A DNA stretch of 50,969 nt, taken from positions 1 through 50,969 of the IMG/VR virus record IMGVR_UViG_3300030685_000032, one strand, 5' to 3'. The stretch is from a virus. The translations under genes were made by a program, and so were the position numbers. Positions 1,961-50,969 of the stretch are shown here, one piece after another. The number at the start of each line of letters is the position of its first letter. The stretch's first letter is position 1. The notes under the pieces were generated by a model. That model was not told the origin of the DNA and searched no databases. It worked only from the letters and a program-made list of their open reading frames with translations.

Positions 1961-2500
1961 TTAGTTACCTGCAGTGGTTGTGAATGTTGGTACTGCCACG
2001 TCTGCTGCGGGTGCTGCATCGGCTGCAGGTGTAGGATTAATGACAGTTTCAACGTGAGTTGCACCTGTTCCAATCCATTTACCCAAACGGTCAACAGTTT
2101 GTTCGGCTTTAGCCTTAGGATTACCGTCAACACGGAAGCCTCCATTGAGTTTGTCAGTAAGAATACGCATATAAACGTCCATACCTGTAAATACTTTGGT
2201 AGAACCGTCTTTGCGTTTGATAAATTCACCGGCTTTGCGTTGGTCATACATGTGATACGGTGGCAATTCAACGTGAATTGGTTCGTATTCAGCATCTTTC
2301 AACACTTTGCTGTTGTCAACCATTTCCTGCCACAAAGCTTGTTGGGCATCAGTTTCAGGGAATAAATTAACTTTAATCACTTTGGTAGCTTGGTCATCTT
2401 CTTTAGAGATAAATTCGCCTTGGAAATAAACCTTGTTAGGGTTTGTCTTAGCATCTGCAGGTACAACCTGTGCTGTGAAAGTTAAACAGTAATAAAGCAT
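1961..2500 (-). CDS. Hypothetical protein, possible nucleic-acid-binding (179 aa)
   Basis: I chose the ATG at 2500-2498 (MLYYCLTFTAQVVPADAKTN). The longer frame from 2614 would run through a repeated non-coding element and add an unlikely N-terminus. The core (KVYFQGEFISKEDDQA, ATKVIKVNLFPETDAQ) alternates like beta-strands, and the last 30 residues are Ala/Pro/Thr-rich and look disordered. The G/C-rich third codon positions differ from neighbours and suggest high expression. A compact fold with a flexible tail in an early arm could be a single-strand DNA-binding protein, but that is a guess. Confidence 0.7.
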   Translation of the reverse strand: MLYYCLTFTAQVVPADAKTNPNKVYFQGEFISKEDDQATKVIKVNLFPETDAQQALWQEMVDNSKVLKDAEYEPIHVELPPYHMYDQRKAGEFIKRKDGSTKVFTGMDVYMRILTDKLNGGFRVDGNPKAKAEQTVDRLGKWIGTGATHVETVINPTPAADAAPAADVAVPTFTTTAGN

Positions 2501-2550: not shown

Positions 2551-2600
2551 ATCCGCAATTTCCACTAAAGGCGAATTGATTGGGACCTATAAGGGAAAAA
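2551..2600 (-). repeat. Leader element copy A
   Basis: First of three related ~45-bp sequences. On the plus strand it shares CCGCAATTTC with copy B, then AAAGG, ATTGATTGGGA and CTATA with the others. It ends 51 nt before the leftward start at 2500. The function is unknown; it could be a promoter, a processing site or an RNA element for the leftward genes. Confidence 0.65.
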
Positions 2601-2708
2601 AAGTTAGAGCGCAATGAACTCGGACCGATTTTGGGTCATTCTGTTCGTTGCCTTTGCTCTTTGATTCCGGCGCCAATCTCTCAACATTACGTCATTCCAT
2701 TGGAACTC

Positions 2709-3023
2709 TCATAATACGCCTTTGGTGTTTCGATTGTTTATAATTGTGAGCATTTCGGTGATTTGGCACCAAATTGTCCTTCCACTGACCTCTGCTCTGT
2801 CGGTCATCGAGCTGCTGCCTTGTACTTTAACAGCCTGTAACATTATGCAATCATTACTCGTTCTCTTGCATAACGGTGATTCGTCAATCACTTTATTTGC
2901 CACTTTATTGTCAGTTAGTGCTGTACTGTGCTTCTTTGTTAAGGAACAGCACATTGGCTGTCCCTTATTTATTCGTGAGCTTAGAGCGGATTTACAGTCC
3001 GGTTGCTCTGAATTATCAGTCAC
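2709..3023 (-). CDS. Hypothetical protein, GTG start (104 aa)
   Basis: The GTG at 3023-3021 overlaps the TGA of the lipoprotein gene (GTGA), which suggests translational coupling. The product is hydrophilic, with six cysteines and no recognised motif. An opposite-strand ORF of similar length (2722-3033) covers the same bases and would be very hydrophobic. I prefer the minus frame because it is coupled to the upstream gene, but codon choice is not decisive and either or neither could be real. Confidence 0.4.
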   Translation of the reverse strand: MTDNSEQPDCKSALSSRINKGQPMCCSLTKKHSTALTDNKVANKVIDESPLCKRTSNDCIMLQAVKVQGSSSMTDRAEVSGRTIWCQITEMLTIINNRNTKGVL

Positions 3024-3334
3024 CGATTGTTAATTAGCGCTATCTCGCGAATAGTGTATGTATCGTATAAATTCTGCTTAACCAATGTTATTGAGTCATT
3101 GAACACTCTATCTGCATCATACCTATCAAAGGCTTTGCAATAGAATGTAGTTTCTGACTTAATACCAATAGAGTCAACAGTAGCTACTGTAGCAACAAAT
3201 AGCTTCATCACCCTGGGCTGAATAATGACATTAGCCCGTCTTTCACTTGGATAGGTGCAACTGCTTAGAGCAACTGCTGATAGCATAAACATTGTAATAA
3301 TGAATACTACCCATAATAAGCCATTCTTTTTCAT
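3020..3334 (-). CDS. Small predicted lipoprotein (104 aa)
   Basis: From the ATG at 3334, the product begins MKKNGLLWVVFIITMFML and has a lipobox-like LSSC with the acylated Cys at about residue 26, a standard signal-peptidase II arrangement. The mature part is about 79 residues, basic at first, without a recognised domain. A longer start at 3373 would put 13 residues before this signal and is less likely. Phage lipoproteins are often made early and can block superinfection at the envelope; that role here is inference from the signal and position only. Confidence 0.65.
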   Translation of the reverse strand: MKKNGLLWVVFIITMFMLSAVALSSCTYPSERRANVIIQPRVMKLFVATVATVDSIGIKSETTFYCKAFDRYDADRVFNDSITLVKQNLYDTYTIREIALINNR

Positions 3335-3464
3335 AACATTGATTGTTAGAAGGTAAAACAAACCGCCTTTCACTAAGCTATTGTGACGGTCTGCGATATA
3401 TGTGCAGTACAGCTCCTGCTTGATTGGATAGATAAGAGGACGGCAACATTGTCAGCCTCTATTA

Positions 3465-3514
3465 CTCCGCAATTTCATCTGAAGGTGCATTGAATGGGAA
3501 CTATAGCGGGACAG
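3465..3514 (-). repeat. Leader element copy B
   Basis: Second copy of the ~45-bp element. On the plus strand it shows CCGCAATTTC, CTGAAGG, TGGGAACTATAG and GGGA. It lies between the stop of the 3539-3691 gene and the start at 3334, about 130 nt upstream of that start. An AGAGG/CCTCT hairpin (about 3436-3460) sits between the element and the gene. Confidence 0.65.
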
Positions 3515-3538
3515 TAGTTATCTGTCAACATAGTGCAA

Positions 3539-3691
3539 TCAATGTGCATACTCAAGTTCAATGTCCTGTTGATATTCACTATCATGGTCAATGATAGTGT
3601 CAACATGTGGCTTATGTATGTTATACGCATGGATTGCAATTACTATAGCACATGCTATAATAACAATGATTAATACAATAATGTGTTCCAT
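3539..3691 (-). CDS. Small single-pass membrane protein (50 aa)
   Basis: The frame from the ATG at 3691 to the TGA at 3541-3539 encodes MEHIIVLIIVIIACAIVIAI followed by a His/Asp/Glu-rich tail of about 30 residues. The hydrophobic stretch at residues 4-20 is a clear membrane anchor, and the tail is acidic. It is the first leftward gene after the divergent region and is preceded by copy C of the repeated element and an operator-like palindrome. The function is unknown; an early membrane-acting protein is plausible. Confidence 0.6.
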   Translation of the reverse strand: MEHIIVLIIVIIACAIVIAIHAYNIHKPHVDTIIDHDSEYQQDIELEYAH

Positions 3692-3724
3692 ATATATAGT
3701 ATATTAAAGGTGACAATGTATTAT

Positions 3725-3741
3725 ATTACATTCAATGTAAT
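3725..3741. promoter_or_regulatory. Operator-like perfect palindrome
   Basis: ATTACATT and AATGTAAT flank a single central C, a perfect 8-bp dyad 33 nt upstream of the leftward start at 3691. Short perfect palindromes at this distance often bind a dimeric repressor. It could equally be a small RNA hairpin in the leader. Confidence 0.4.
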
Positions 3742-3749
3742 GTGATTAG

Positions 3750-3785
3750 AGCAATCAAATAACAAATGAGAATGAACTGATTGCT
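3750..3785 (-). other. Inverted repeat in leader of 3539-3691
   Basis: AGCAATCA (3750-3757) and TGATTGCT (3778-3785) are perfect 8-bp arms separated by 20 nt. They lie between copy C of the repeated element and the palindrome at 3725-3741. This may form a stem in the leftward leader transcript; no U-tract is present. Confidence 0.4.
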
Positions 3786-3836
3786 GCGCATATCCAACTG
3801 AAGGAGGACTGATTGGGAGCTATAGAGGAGCAATGG
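3783..3836 (-). repeat. Leader element copy C
   Basis: Third copy of the ~45-bp element. The plus strand reads AACTGAAGGAGGACTGATTG followed by GGAGCTATAGAGGAG, and aligns without gaps to copy B over the core. It is about 92 nt upstream of the leftward start at 3691. All three copies have the same orientation relative to the gene that follows. Confidence 0.65.
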
Positions 3837-3910
3837 CGGGGGACTTGCCTTCGGTCGGAACCCCCGGGGAGTGCCTGGGAGAGACATTCACGCTTGCCCA
3901 TATGCACTCC
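3837..3910. other. Two adjacent GC-rich hairpins in divergent region
   Basis: CGGGGG (3837-3842) pairs with CCCCCG (3861-3866). Immediately after, GGAGTGC (3868-3874) pairs with GCACTCC (3904-3910), with GGG/CCC stacking inside (3877-3879 with 3897-3899). These are the most GC-rich bases nearby. They sit between the leftward genes and the rightward promoter. They could be a terminator pair separating the arms, part of an origin, or the 5' end of the leftward transcript. Confidence 0.4.
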
Positions 3911-4009
3911 AAAATAAATTTTCTACTAATTTTTTTAGGTTCTCGCGTGCTTATATGCCCTTCGAAATTTATTTTTTAAAAAAATTTGCAAAATAATTCA
4001 TTTTCATTG

Positions 4010-4040
4010 CAACCTTTTTGAATTAAATACGTTATATAGG
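4010..4040 (+). promoter_or_regulatory. ECF-sigma-like promoter P1
   Basis: CAACCTTTTT at 4010 is followed by ATTAAATACGTTATATA. AAC (4011-4013) and CGT (4030-4032) are 16 nt apart, like the -35 AAC and -10 CGT of ECF-sigma promoters in Bacteroidota. A near-identical copy is at 5801-5830. Transcription would start near 4039-4041, exactly where a strong hairpin begins. Confidence 0.6.
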
Positions 4041-4320
4041 TGATACCAGTCTCCAAAGGCTGATTCACCCTAGGATAATCAATAAGGGGTTAGACATCGG
4101 ATTGTAGTTACTTAAGTAATGAGTTTTCTCCGGTAGTATCAAAGATTTTAAGTACATATTGAATGCAGCAGGTTACTATTCGAAAGGATGTGTATCTAAT
4201 AAGGGGAGATTGAGATAAGCTGATGGGTGTAGGCGAAAGCTGACGTACGGATTGAATATGGAACTAAATTGAAAGCCAACTGGAATATGGACCCGGTCTC
4301 AAGGGGTAAATTATGTTTAA
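4039..4320 (+). ncRNA. Candidate structured RNA downstream of P1
   Basis: This is a 280-nt stretch without a credible ORF, richer in G than its surroundings. It opens with the stem GGTGA (4039-4043)/TCACC (4065-4069), extended by CAG/CTG and CC/GG. It also holds the palindrome TTACTTAAGTAA (4108-4119) and a GCGAAAGC tetraloop hairpin near 4233. Parts read like domain I of bacterial group II introns, but there is no maturase gene and no domain V. It could be a free regulatory RNA or a long leader for the thioredoxin unit. Confidence 0.4.
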
Positions 4321-4345: not shown

Positions 4346-4376
4346 AGAACAAATAAGCCCAGAATACGTTTATATT
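4346..4376 (+). promoter_or_regulatory. ECF-sigma-like promoter P3
   Basis: AAC (4348-4350), exactly 16 nt, then CGTTTATAT (from 4367). The -10 part matches the promoter at 5801-5830 and the spacing is the same as in P1. It would serve the small ORF at 4380 or the thioredoxin gene at 4496; a start near 4377 leaves almost no leader for the 4380 ORF. Confidence 0.45.
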
Positions 4377-5799: not shown

Positions 5800-5831
5800 A
5801 CAACCTTTTTCATTTAAATACGTTTATATAT
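5800..5831 (+). promoter_or_regulatory. ECF-sigma-like promoter P2
   Basis: CAACCTTTTT (5801-5810) followed by ATTTAAATACGTTTATATA. The AAC and CGT are 16 nt apart. It is almost base-for-base the same as P1 at 4010-4040. It lies between a terminator and the first gene of a long operon, which is where a promoter is expected. Confidence 0.65.
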
Positions 5832-5856
5832 ATAGTTATCCATAATAACACTATAA

Positions 5857-45026: not shown

Positions 45027-48000
45027 ATGACAAAACAAGAAATTAGGGCCGCGCTGAATAGCGGCAGCATGAGATGGTCGGATTTAAATCCGGCCTCTGC
45101 TGTTTCTAATCGATCCTATAGAAGACAAGAGCTAGAAGATGAACTACGTAAGAGCGAACAAGAATCCGCAGTAGCATCTGAACCTCAAAAACCGACAAAA
45201 CCAGTACAAAATACTGCAGTTAACCAATCCGAGCAAACGTCTCAGGATGCTGTTTTTAACCCCGCTACGGACTCTATAGTTCCAACTGATACAATTAGTC
45301 CAGAACTGAGAGAAAAGGCCACCAAGGAGCTTAAAACAAGCGAGAAGGGCATTGTAGCCCCCAATAATCAGCAGTCAAAAACAAAAAAGGATTATAGCCT
45401 ATTTGATCTTGCTGGAAACTCGTTTAAGAACTTTGCAGGAGGTGTATATAACACTGGAATGACATGGTTTGAAGCCAAAACACTCAACGAAATCACTCCA
45501 TTATTGGAGGCGAAAGACATATTAAGTGAGTCTGCAAATGATCCAAATACATACAAATTGATAGATTTATATGCTAAAGGACAGACAAAAAACTTTACTC
45601 CATATGTGGCTCCTAGCGATCCAGTTAGAGATAAATTAAACGCAGAGGAAAAATGGAAGTATGATTTAAATAAGCAACTAGAAAAGAATGCTGTTGATAG
45701 TCCTGATTTATTGGACAATGTTGTATCTGCATTTAAGGCTCCATTAAGAGTGTTAGACTCGTGGGCTAAGAATCCAACAAAAATACTTGGAGATATAGAA
45801 AATCCAATTAGAAGTATATTTGGAGATACAGACCAAAACAATAGGATATTTAAGAATAGTGCTGGAGATATACAAAAAGACCAGAGAGCCGACAGACAAG
45901 ATAGGTTTGATGTTAGGTCTGGAAAAACTACAATTGGTAGTGATTTATTGGCTGGCGTAAATGAAGGAGCGTCTAAGACTACTGCTCCTATGTTATTAGG
46001 TACGTCATTGATAGATGGAACTATTTTGCCAAAGATAGCACCTTATGCTGCTGCCGCTTATGGTGCGTATTCAAATTCTGATGCAGTTAACCAGAATACT
46101 GGATGGAGAAGGCTTGATCCTGCTGAGATACCGGATGAGCTTCAAGAAACAAATGCTAGACTTGGCAACTCAATAATTGCATTGTCAAAAATGAATGGTA
46201 AATTTAGAGATAAATTTCCAAGTATTGACGAAATCGTAGCTGGCAAAAACATAAACAACACTTCTGCCGGAAAAGACTGGAAAGATAAAGCTACTAAGGC
46301 CTTATATGAGGACTACAAAGCCAACAAGGATTGGGCTGGAAAATTTCAGTACATGAAAGATAGAACTGCAGCTCCCGATGAGGAGATAAATACAGAATAC
46401 CCAACGCTGGCAAATGTTACGCAGAGTTTAGGGGCTTCTTCTTCTATGATTGTTCCTATGATAGTAAATCAGGCGGCTACTGCTGCTGTTTCTGGACTCA
46501 CAAGAGGTCTTATATCTGCAAATGGTACTAGACCAGTATTAGACTACTTAGTAACAAAAGGTGGAATTCTATCTGGAGCAATGTCTAATGCATATATGTC
46601 TGTGAAATCCAGAGAGTCTGAGGCTTATTCTCAGCTGCTTCCAAGCTATACTAAGAGGTTTTCAGAGCAACTAGCAAAAGAAAAAGATCCGACTACTGGA
46701 TTGTCATATGATATTTTCGATGGGAAATCATTTTCTGATAAGAAATTGCTCGAAATTGTTGACAGAAACAAATCTTTGTCATCTCTAAATTCTAGTGATG
46801 TTCAGAAAAATGGTAATATAGGATATTCTAGCGTTTTAAGTAATTACGATAATGCAATTTCTGAGTTAAATAAGACTGGGGCTTTATCAAAAGAGACTAG
46901 AGGCAAATTGCTTAGTGATATCCAATCTGGATTTCTTAAAACTAAGATAGATGATAAGATAAACAGCGCCAGAAGTCACGCATTAAGTGGCGTAGACGAA
47001 TATCTTAGAGAATATATGTCTATGCTTGCTATAGATATGGCTCAGAATTCATATATATCTGCTCCATTCAATGCAAATAAGATAGCAGCTGTAAATAAAT
47101 TTGATCAATCATTGTTTGGGTCTATAAATAGGACATCAGAAATGGTTTCTGATTACTTAGTCAATTCTACTGCCGGGAAGATGGTGAATAAAGTCAATAA
47201 TTTCTCTTTAGCTGGAGTTCGAGTTGGTGCTGTTCCGGAATTTGTAGGAAGGACTGGAAAAAGAATGGTTGTCGAAGGACTTTCAGAGGCTTTCTTAGAG
47301 GAAAATCCGCAACAGTTGATTCAGTACAAGTACGAAGATGGCAAGTTAAAGGACTCTAACAACTTAATGGATGCTATAACTAATACTGCAAATTTTGCTG
47401 TATCTGCGCACTTGGCTCAGTGGGGAGTTGGAGAGGATGCTAAATATCAAAAAGGGATAAATGAGAATTTCGTTATGACCCTTTTGACCACCAGTATACA
47501 TACTGGGGTTATGGGCTTGCCGGGTACGATAAAAGAAATGTCTAACGCCCAAAAAGAGCAAAAGGCAAAGGCTTTCGTGAAAGGGAATGTTATAAAAGAC
47601 ATGCAGACTGCCGATAGAGTCAATAAAACGAATGTATATGTTGACGCCGTCACCAAAGGAAAAGAAGAGTATATAGTAAACTATCTGAATGAGCTAGCTC
47701 AAAATCCTCCAGAAGGAATCTCTACTGAGGATATAAAGGATGAGGCTAGAATAGCTCAGAGGACAATGGCTGTTGCTAATAATAAAAAAATACTTGGATA
47801 CGCAAATAGAGCTGGAGGAGTTGGGTCAGAAGCCCATAAATTACTTACTGCATTATTTATTGACCACGAAGAATCTGCTAATCAGGATAAATTTGAGGCT
47901 GTTTCTAATCTATCTGAATTTGAGGCAGTAAAAAGAGATAAATTCAAAGATTCTTCATTTAAGGAGTTCTTCGATCAACACAATGAGAATAATCCAGAAA

Positions 48001-50969
48001 ATCCAATATCTACCGCTTCTCAAAATGATATATTCAATGCTATAGCAGAGGCAAAGGTTTTGAATAGTATATTGTTCGTTAATAAAGCTAAGGACAAAAT
48101 CTCTCAGACTAAGCTAGATGTTCTTAATAGGTCTTTAAATAAAGAAAGAAACGCAGCTGTTACTAATCTTCATAATCAATTAATATCTAATGGATTAATC
48201 AGCAAAGAAGACGTGTCAGATCCTTCTCTGGATAATCTATTAAGTAAAGTAGACGAATTGGATATTCCATCTATAGAAAATGACTTCTTGATACCAATGG
48301 GTAAATCTAAGATATCATTGATGGGATATGATTATAATAACTACATGAAGAGGGAGTTGATGAATAATCCAATCGAAAAGCAGGATAAATTATCTACTCA
48401 AGACCATGATATTTATATAGATGAGATTCTTGACGCGTATAGAACTAAAAAGAAAGAGGAATTAGAAGCCGAAAAAGTAAAGGAAGTTGTAGATGAAGTA
48501 AAGTCTGAAGTATCTGAAGAAGAGGAACCTATAGTTCCAACGTATGAGAGTACATCTGAAGAACTAGAACATGTAGCAGAAGTAGTTCCTGCAGAGGCAG
48601 AATCTCCTATTCCAACAGAAACTCCTGATATAATTCCAATAGTAGATACCGAGGCTGGGGCAGTAGAGGATTTAACTGGAGATGTAGATTCTATGATAGA
48701 CGAGATGAATTCAGGTATTCAGTCAGATATCGTTGAGCCAGATCAAAATCCAGATAAACCAGTCGATATAGAGCCGTCTATAGTTGATAACAATGCAGAG
48801 GTATTGGCCGATATCAAAGATAATAACGATTTAGAGGAAGTGTACTCGGAACCTGACACTGAAATTATAAATGATCTATCAGATGATATTACTGGGCTTA
48901 TTTCTACTGAAACTGCCAAACACGATAGAATTAGTAGAACATTATTTGCTGATGTAAAGATTCCTATAATACGAGAATTTTTAATGAATCCAGACGCATT
49001 TAAGTCTGCAAAGGTTAAAATCGTAGTAAACAGACATAGATCTGGGACTACAAATACATATACTGTACCTGCTTCTGTAAATCAGAACGGAGTAAAGAAT
49101 ACTATAACTGGAGAAGATTATACTGCATTAAATGACTTTGATGTAAACTTACCAGAAACATGGGATAATGCATTCATAAAAGTAGATATCAAATTCCAGG
49201 ATGGAAAGATCGAAAGAGCATTGATATTTACAATGAAAAATCCAGGAGAAAGGGATATCGTTGTTGATGACAGCGGTATGAAGAAGTATTCTCCAGAAGA
49301 AGTTCAAGCTCTTAGAGACTTCAGAAACTCTATCATATCAGAATATGCAAAAACTATTGCAGATCCATCTTTAGAATTAAGAATGAAGAATGGATTTGAG
49401 AGAGGTATTGCTAAGTATGCATTAAATAGGGATAAGAATGGAAGAGCAGTACAAAGAGCTCTTAATGAAATTGTTGGACTAATTGACGAAAGCGATGTAA
49501 ATAAACTTGGCGTACACAATCTTACTGTTGCTTACGGTAGAGGAGAAAGAGGAGGAAACTTAGTTGTTTCTTTATTTGAGTCTATGGGTATTTCAAACAG
49601 TGAAAACTCTGGTTCTATATTTATTACTAAGCCAGATCCATTAAATTCCAATGAAGAAGTAAAAATCAAAGTAAATAAAACTAGATTTTCTGATGAGGCT
49701 GGAACAGCAGAATTAGTATATAAATTAGCTGTAGATATGAGAGGTAGTACTGCTAAGCAGATTACAATCTCAGATAAAGGAGAAGTTATAGAGACTACTG
49801 ATACGTCTCCATATGGACTTACTCCTGCATTGTTATTGTCTAGAATAGTCAATTTTGATAGAAAGACAAATGTTTCTGCAGATGGAAAAGACTTCTTAAA
49901 GAATAAACAGTTCTATGTAGAGTCTGGCATATTACACTATAGTGAAAATACTATACCATTATCATTAATAAAGGAAAATGAAAAGGCAGAAATCCTTAAA
50001 TTTATAAACGATAATCTTACTTGGATTGTAGACAAAAATGATTTATGGAATTCTGATAATAACACTGATAATTTAGTATCTGACTTATTTCCTGGTATAA
50101 AATCTTATTTAGATAGAAACTCAGATAAAGGTTCTGTATCATTTGCTCCTGGAGTTACATTCTCTAAGGAAGATATGGGTATCACTTGGACTGCGTGGCT
50201 GATAAAGAATAAGAAATTAGTATCTGATATTGGCGATGGAGTATTTGAACCACCATTCTTATTTATGACTGATGTAGTTGCTGTTCCTAGAGGATCTGAA
50301 GACATTGTGTCCATAAAGGATGGAGCATATAATACTTCTCCTGTTGCTGAAGTTAAAAGTTCAGTTGCAGATGATGTTGCTACCGAATATACTCCAGATC
50401 CAACGGAAATCGCAGAAGAAACTAAGACTCCTGCTGCAGAAGTGAAACCACTTGATTTCTTTGATGATTTCATGGGCGGAGTACCGAGCTTGATAGATGT
50501 TAATAATCTACCAACAAGTACTTTAGATGCAGAATCTGCAGTTAGATTCCTTAGAGAAAAACTTGGAGATAACTTTGAAGCGAGCGTAATTGATGATGTC
50601 ATAGCATTAGCTAATGGTGGATTTGCACAGGGATTGACTGGAAATGATTTAATATTATTATCTAGATTAGCTCAAAAAGGTACTGAGTTCCATGAGGCAT
50701 TCCACAGAGCGTCATTATTGCTTATTCCAAGAAGAAGGAGAATGGCAATATATGATAATATTAGAAATACTAACGAAGAATTTAAAAATGCTACAGACTC
50801 TCAAATAGAGGAAATGTTAGCTGAGAAATTTAGAGAAAGAGTATTATCTAATGAGGTTGATATTGCGAATGGTACCGTAGTTAATAGGGTGTTTAGAAAG
50901 ATGTATAACGCTCTTAATGCTTATAATAACTTCAAAGATAGAGACGTTGAAAGACTATTCAGAGATATA
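45027..50969 (+). CDS. Giant cargo polyprotein with zincin motif, truncated by window
   Basis: The frame is open from ATG 45027 to the window end, 1,981 residues so far. It opens MTKQEIRAALNSGSMRWSDL, then has Ala-rich amphipathic segments (LPKIAPYAAAAYGAYSNSDA) and long helical parts. An acidic linker occupies about 1140-1280, and a second Pro/Glu linker about 1772-1815. GTEFHEAFHRASLLL places HExxH at 1889-1893, with EEMLAEKFRE a probable third ligand. In crAss-like phages such giant proteins lie beside, or fuse with, the virion RNA polymerase, so polymerase domains may lie beyond the window. A self-processing protease is plausible. Confidence 0.8.
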   Translation, partial: MTKQEIRAALNSGSMRWSDLNPASAVSNRSYRRQELEDELRKSEQESAVASEPQKPTKPVQNTAVNQSEQTSQDAVFNPATDSIVPTDTISPELREKATKELKTSEKGIVAPNNQQSKTKKDYSLFDLAGNSFKNFAGGVYNTGMTWFEAKTLNEITPLLEAKDILSESANDPNTYKLIDLYAKGQTKNFTPYVAPSDPVRDKLNAEEKWKYDLNKQLEKNAVDSPDLLDNVVSAFKAPLRVLDSWAKNPTKILGDIENPIRSIFGDTDQNNRIFKNSAGDIQKDQRADRQDRFDVRSGKTTIGSDLLAGVNEGASKTTAPMLLGTSLIDGTILPKIAPYAAAAYGAYSNSDAVNQNTGWRRLDPAEIPDELQETNARLGNSIIALSKMNGKFRDKFPSIDEIVAGKNINNTSAGKDWKDKATKALYEDYKANKDWAGKFQYMKDRTAAPDEEINTEYPTLANVTQSLGASSSMIVPMIVNQAATAAVSGLTRGLISANGTRPVLDYLVTKGGILSGAMSNAYMSVKSRESEAYSQLLPSYTKRFSEQLAKEKDPTTGLSYDIFDGKSFSDKKLLEIVDRNKSLSSLNSSDVQKNGNIGYSSVLSNYDNAISELNKTGALSKETRGKLLSDIQSGFLKTKIDDKINSARSHALSGVDEYLREYMSMLAIDMAQNSYISAPFNANKIAAVNKFDQSLFGSINRTSEMVSDYLVNSTAGKMVNKVNNFSLAGVRVGAVPEFVGRTGKRMVVEGLSEAFLEENPQQLIQYKYEDGKLKDSNNLMDAITNTANFAVSAHLAQWGVGEDAKYQKGINENFVMTLLTTSIHTGVMGLPGTIKEMSNAQKEQKAKAFVKGNVIKDMQTADRVNKTNVYVDAVTKGKEEYIVNYLNELAQNPPEGISTEDIKDEARIAQRTMAVANNKKILGYANRAGGVGSEAHKLLTALFIDHEESANQDKFEAVSNLSEFEAVKRDKFKDSSFKEFFDQHNENNPENPISTASQNDIFNAIAEAKVLNSILFVNKAKDKISQTKLDVLNRSLNKERNAAVTNLHNQLISNGLISKEDVSDPSLDNLLSKVDELDIPSIENDFLIPMGKSKISLMGYDYNNYMKRELMNNPIEKQDKLSTQDHDIYIDEILDAYRTKKKEELEAEKVKEVVDEVKSEVSEEEEPIVPTYESTSEELEHVAEVVPAEAESPIPTETPDIIPIVDTEAGAVEDLTGDVDSMIDEMNSGIQSDIVEPDQNPDKPVDIEPSIVDNNAEVLADIKDNNDLEEVYSEPDTEIINDLSDDITGLISTETAKHDRISRTLFADVKIPIIREFLMNPDAFKSAKVKIVVNRHRSGTTNTYTVPASVNQNGVKNTITGEDYTALNDFDVNLPETWDNAFIKVDIKFQDGKIERALIFTMKNPGERDIVVDDSGMKKYSPEEVQALRDFRNSIISEYAKTIADPSLELRMKNGFERGIAKYALNRDKNGRAVQRALNEIVGLIDESDVNKLGVHNLTVAYGRGERGGNLVVSLFESMGISNSENSGSIFITKPDPLNSNEEVKIKVNKTRFSDEAGTAELVYKLAVDMRGSTAKQITISDKGEVIETTDTSPYGLTPALLLSRIVNFDRKTNVSADGKDFLKNKQFYVESGILHYSENTIPLSLIKENEKAEILKFINDNLTWIVDKNDLWNSDNNTDNLVSDLFPGIKSYLDRNSDKGSVSFAPGVTFSKEDMGITWTAWLIKNKKLVSDIGDGVFEPPFLFMTDVVAVPRGSEDIVSIKDGAYNTSPVAEVKSSVADDVATEYTPDPTEIAEETKTPAAEVKPLDFFDDFMGGVPSLIDVNNLPTSTLDAESAVRFLREKLGDNFEASVIDDVIALANGGFAQGLTGNDLILLSRLAQKGTEFHEAFHRASLLLIPRRRRMAIYDNIRNTNEEFKNATDSQIEEMLAEKFRERVLSNEVDIANGTVVNRVFRKMYNALNAYNNFKDRDVERLFRDI

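Follow-up and report, generated by a model that had tools for sequence, protein, structure and literature searches.

The locus

The window, i.e. the whole stretch of 50,969 nucleotides analysed here, is a single virus record and represents a fragment of a crAss-like phage. Its terminase, portal and major capsid proteins could be assigned to the respective PHROG families, and the major capsid protein is 79% identical to that of Besingivirus coli cr118_1 (family Suoliviridae), 87–89% identical to those of several uncultured contigs and 100% identical to that of one short contig. Genes run leftward from about 3.7 kb and rightward from about 4.4 kb, and three copies of a degenerate element lie at this divergent point. 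At the right-hand end of the window a giant protein runs off the contig. In the homologous cr118 protein, the virion RNA polymerase domain of phi14:2 is present (PDB 6vr4, E=1.7e-44), and a domain of this type is also present in the related contig G006 (E=2.1e-32). The polymerase gene of the phage itself is interrupted by the contig end, and the polymerase domain proper is seen in the relatives. The features considered below are:

1961–2500, minus strand: gene 3 (presumed pre-early), 179 aa; orthologs in G006, G009 and cr118, a weaker one in G011
2552–2601, minus strand: element copy 1, ahead of gene 3 (start codon ATG at 2500, 51 nt away)
3020–3334, minus strand: gene 2 (presumed pre-early), 104-aa lipoprotein-like protein; ortholog in G022
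3466–3515, minus strand: element copy 2, ahead of gene 2 (start codon ATG at 3334, 131 nt away)
3539–3691, minus strand: gene 1 (presumed pre-early), 50-aa membrane-helix protein; ortholog in G006
3785–3834, minus strand: element copy 3, ahead of gene 1 (start codon ATG at 3691, 93 nt away)
3835–3873, minus strand: C-run block (CACTCCCCGGGGG...GGCAAGTCCCCCGCC) abutting copy 3 upstream, aligned by eye
3885–3907, minus strand: short direct repeat, iteron-like, GTGCATATGGGCAAGCGTGAATG
3938–3960, minus strand: short direct repeat, iteron-like, GGGCATATAAGCACGCGAGAACC, 53 nt from the other repeat
4009–4038, plus strand: ECF-sigma-like promoter 1 (GCAACC ... TACGTTATA) before the noncoding RNA
4036–4318, plus strand: conserved covarying noncoding RNA of about 280 nt, not in Rfam
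4347–4375, plus strand: ECF-sigma-like promoter 2 (GAACAA ... TACGTTTATA)
5800–5832, plus strand: ECF-sigma-like promoter 3 (ACAACC ... TACGTTTATA)
45027–50969, plus strand: giant protein, N-terminal part of 1981 aa, running off the contig; homology to the cr118 protein

A three-copy element in front of the first leftward genes

Positions 2552–2606, 3466–3520 and 3785–3839 form an ungapped three-copy repeat in a single orientation, the second and third copies being 76% and 65% identical to copy 1 over 55 nt. This bears out the sequence-only reading of this DNA, which had described three degenerate, same-orientation copies upstream of the leftward starts at 2500, 3334 and 3691. The blocks CTGAAGG, TGGGA and CTATAG, which that reading took to be shared, hold in general, except that copy 1 reads CTAAAGG and CTATAA. 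On the minus strand the consensus of about 40 bp is TATAGnTCCCAwTCArTnCnCCTTyAGnTGrAATTGCGGA; it is non-palindromic and strictly oriented. The window contains three matches to the consensus and 100 dinucleotide shuffles contain none; no fourth copy was found anywhere in the 51 kb. The copies are clustered within 1.3 kb, and the sequence surrounding them has diverged.

The element sits in untranslated sequence. An upstream TTG start would extend the reading frame of gene 3 through copy 1; when gene 3 is aligned to its ortholog, however, the match begins at the ATG at 2500 and not at this TTG. A translated repeat was ruled out by direct reading of the sequence, as each reading frame across the copies meets stops in at least one of them. 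A host repeat or mobile element was rejected as well: the pattern as it occurs in the window had two scattered matches among GTDB genomes and none in a viral collection.

The products of the three genes are unrelated to one another, as had been claimed from the sequence; none of them belongs to a PHROG family, and the two tested against Pfam had no match. Orthologs of all three occur in relatives, for the most part at the corresponding position. The gene 1 and gene 3 proteins are 47% and 39% identical, respectively, to their G006 counterparts, and the G022 gene located behind the element copy of that contig aligns to gene 3 at 26%. A gene 3 search of viral and phage collections returned no relatives outside G006. 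Beyond the ortholog in G022, gene 2 is matched more weakly in G002 and G011, and its similarity to the G006 gene at the corresponding place is not detectable. The distance from element to start codon is 93 nt in the window and 94 nt in G006 for gene 1, and 51 nt in the window, 51 nt in G006 and 52 nt in G022 for gene 3. Judged by their position, genes 1 to 3 would constitute the earliest-expressed class.

Two minus-strand segments next to these genes were also noticed. The leader of gene 2 (3366–3419, minus strand), downstream of copy 2, shares GCAGGAGCTGTACTGCA and CACAATAGCTTAGTGA with G006, pointing to a conserved 5' untranslated RNA. The interval between genes 2 and 3 includes about 400 nt (2610–3030, minus strand) that are devoid of a convincing gene and fold better than 100 of 100 shuffles (z -3.2); they include CGGACTGTAAATCCG, which resembles a tRNA anticodon arm.

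The element in related phages

The sequence-only reading had put forward a search of the remaining genome and of related phages as a check on the element. The window holds no further copy. Three copies each were found in G006 and G005, and diverged versions in G011 and G022. Searching 35 related contigs with up to three mismatches detected two copies in G006 and none in the others, with no matches in the controls; profile scans added the third copy in G006 and the three in G005. A relaxed core pattern, applied to 45 related contigs, matched five times, always in G005 or G006, and its backward control had no match. De novo motif discovery by itself did not rise above shuffled controls in most single genomes.

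The key test consisted of weight matrices from which one genome at a time was left out, with scores in bits. A matrix built from G006 and G005 only ranked the three window copies as the top three sites (32.8, 30.8 and 30.0 bits), the next site scoring 9.1 and the reversed control 16.9; the best score across 100 simulated windows was 18.9 bits. The matrix from the window and G005 recovered the G006 copies at 44.2, 40.2 and 32.2 bits (next site, 15.8), and that from the window and G006 recovered the G005 copies at 26.5, 24.4 and 24.3 bits (next site, 1.4). With all three sources combined, the top sites in G011 (17 kb) and G022 (10 kb) scored 14.8 and 11.8 bits, respectively, both oriented and located before an early gene. 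G011 has its own diverged version of the element in triplicate (GAATATGTCATTG...GCCT...AATTGGC), of which copies two and three come no higher than third and fourth in the ranking.

In the relatives, the copies have the orientation of the early genes and are confined to positions ahead of the first few genes of the early arm, beside the divergent region. Mean identity between copies is 69% within a genome versus 56% between genomes, a difference not reached in any of 5000 label permutations, and the contrast is strongest in the upstream part of the element (78% versus 57%). Such likeness within a genome would be expected of sites that are read by one co-evolving trans-acting factor.

In G002, G008, G010 and the gut Suoliviridae, copies are weak or arguable only. 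Candidates in G002, cr118, cr10, cr50 and cr272 are no more than suggestive, including one in cr118 that lies 40 nt upstream of the gene 3 ortholog; whole-genome self-comparison of cr118 and cr50 did not reveal a comparable repeat family. The early region of crAss001, a cultured member of the Steigviridae whose early transcription has been measured, is free of the element. Thus, the element is not a signal common to all Crassvirales.

Other signals in the divergent region

Upstream of copy 3, the C-run block and the two direct repeats have equivalents before the first early gene in many Suoliviridae, the sequence of the repeat being lineage-specific. Seven of 127 scored upstream segments matched the C-run pattern, each time ahead of the first early gene, and further cases were recognized by eye. 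Block and repeats could together represent the main early promoter or a replication origin, or they may be a further component of the early control region.

The ECF-type sites on the plus strand (AAC, about 16 bp, TACGTTwTA; 4028, 4365 and 5819) recur as a trio, at the same three positions, in G005, G008, G010 and G022, and an ECF sigma factor is encoded by relatives. Taken by itself, the TACGTT box is found no less often than its reversed control, so that the case for these sites is made by the AAC box together with the spacing and the recurrence of the positions. They likely represent the phage's own class of middle or late promoters.

Behind the first of these sites, between the two arms, lies the noncoding RNA of about 280 nt, which is apparently undescribed. 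An automatic alignment of nine genomes, evaluated without a shuffled control, has at least one pair-keeping two-sided change in 30 of 42 predicted pairs. A model of the 3' core of this RNA weakly matched the same place in the gut phage cr118 (L010 16680–16778, E=0.0018). Other RNA-like features were noticed in early regions of the relatives. A leader sequence around TTGTCGAGCTAAGACTnAGACATGTGTTTAGACACACAT recurs in the first early leader of G008 (L121), G022 (L128), G002 (L118/L119) and G005 (L120), and is possibly another structured RNA. The early region of G002 contains a permuted tmRNA (L118 13917–14099, minus strand), and tmRNAs are annotated in the early region of the gut Suoliviridae cr50, cr114, cr10 and cr272.

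Function of the element

Two functions had been considered from the sequence for an element selected for its own sake, a promoter or a leader RNA. Occurrence in relatives, orientation, orthologous genes behind the copies and matched distances to their start codons speak for a promoter, and we infer this function with good support from sequence comparison. Architecture, orientation and distance would, however, fit a promoter of any kind, including one that is read at the pre-early stage by host RNA polymerase, either redirected by an injected phage factor or combined with an unrecognised host sigma factor. The presence of an ECF sigma factor gene in these phages implies that the host polymerase is probably used for other genes. 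Nevertheless, we regard such an enzyme as an unlikely reader of the element. Early genes of phi14:2 are resistant to rifampicin (PMC10136315), and the ECF-like sites of the window are a different motif on the opposite arm. The element itself does not have AAC and CGT boxes 16–17 bp apart, and TACGTT(A/T)TA sites near the divergent region occur on the plus strand only. A host promoter of the sigma-A-like type (Bacteroidetes -7 box TAnnTTTG, TTTG at -33) was not apparent near the element either, with no TAnnTTTG on the minus strand between 2451 and 4100.

The leader position of the copies and their orientation on a single strand would also suit a cis-acting RNA element in the 5' leaders of pre-early mRNAs, serving phage-protein binding, processing or stability. 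Yet the three window copies, taken from either strand and folded with RNA parameters, are no more stable than shuffles, the single hairpin tested does not covary, the curated covariance models of Rfam do not match the element, and the distance to the start codon varies between the different genes of the window (51–131 nt). Hence, the leader RNA half of the earlier proposal was not upheld, and we consider it rather improbable. An N4-like hairpin promoter was likewise rejected, for lack of a conserved inverted repeat: the candidate three-pair stem is 61.5% paired over 13 copies, with covariation not above that of shuffles.

Co-variation of the copies within a genome suits any trans-acting reader, among them a phage regulator that binds the element as an operator and controls early genes whose promoter is located elsewhere. 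The size of about 40 bp, the non-palindromic sequence and the strict orientation argue against an operator, and another recurring promoter-like motif was not seen before genes 2 and 3; we give this reading little credence. Finally, local duplication would also yield copies that are more alike within than between genomes and clustered within a short distance, and could contribute to this likeness, but a functionless by-product of duplication is very hard to reconcile with the matched distances before orthologs, given gene 3 products that are only 39% identical, and with the diverged flanks of the three window copies.

A candidate promoter of the virion RNA polymerase

On balance, we favour the reading that the element is a double-stranded DNA promoter of the three pre-early genes, most likely read by the injected virion RNA polymerase. 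The virion RNA polymerase would enter the cell together with the phage DNA and read the element, and each of the first three immediate-early genes would be driven by its own copy. The pre-early genes would thereby be transcribed without a host sigma factor. Transcription would begin at the element or immediately downstream of it, giving leaders of about 50–130 nt.

Assignment to the virion polymerase, the most likely enzyme, is made because of the analogy with the Thermus phage P23-45, whose virion polymerase was assigned to a motif upstream of the pre-early genes (PMC10770324). Here, too, a motif recurs, always in one orientation, in front of several genes that are presumed from their position to be the earliest. 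The motif is also common to near relatives that carry the polymerase, as G006 has both three copies and the phi14:2-type domain. Early transcription of phi14:2 is rifampicin-resistant and has been assigned to the virion polymerase, and early genes of crAss001 are switched on within 10 min (PMC10136315, PMC8375218). The proposal of the sequence-only reading that the element is the site of this polymerase is thus consistent with the phi14:2 literature and with the polymerase found in relatives. Alternatively, the polymerase may actually recognise the C-run block or the direct repeats ahead of the first gene, or the element may be just one of two polymerase signals in the early control region.

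In its most specific form, our proposal is that a crAss-like virion RNA polymerase recognises the element, which would be a long, oriented and lineage-specific promoter, marking a conserved three-gene pre-early class, co-evolving with the enzyme, and facing the phage's ECF-sigma promoter class across the divergent region. We regard the chances of this fuller proposal as evenly balanced. In the accessible literature we found no published promoter motif for crAss001 or phi14:2; the phi14:2 polymerase paper lies outside that scope and might report one. In the human gut, crAss-like phages belong to the most common viruses, and they deliver a giant RNA polymerase into the cell; a description of the sequence which this enzyme targets on phage DNA was not found in the same literature. 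With a defined 40-bp candidate, three copies per genome, graded variants in relatives and named target genes, the question becomes open to testing in vitro. If the proposal is true, the very first genes expressed by these phages would be named.

Comparison with known systems

Promoters of the N4 virion RNA polymerase are small DNA hairpins that are read by a T7-like enzyme, and several separate early promoters for this injected polymerase are found near the start of the early region. The element resembles them in that multiple separate early promoters would lie close to the beginning of the early region. By contrast, a consistent hairpin was not found here, and the enzyme is of the two-barrel phi14:2 type. 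ECF-sigma promoters, with AAC and CGT boxes about 16 bp apart, are present next door on the plus strand; the element differs from them in having neither box in such an arrangement and in belonging to the opposite arm. Crass001 and phi14:2 likewise have their early genes on one genome arm; these genes are read by the virion polymerase in phi14:2 and are thought to be so in crAss001 (PMC8375218, PMC10136315), which differs in that its early region does not contain the element. Compared by description only, P23-45 differs in having an AT-rich motif and mapped transcript starts, whereas the crAss element spans about 40 bp of mixed composition. Common to both systems, however, are a recurring motif before the first-entering genes, an injected two-barrel RNA polymerase and a motif that is shared by close relatives (PMC10770324).
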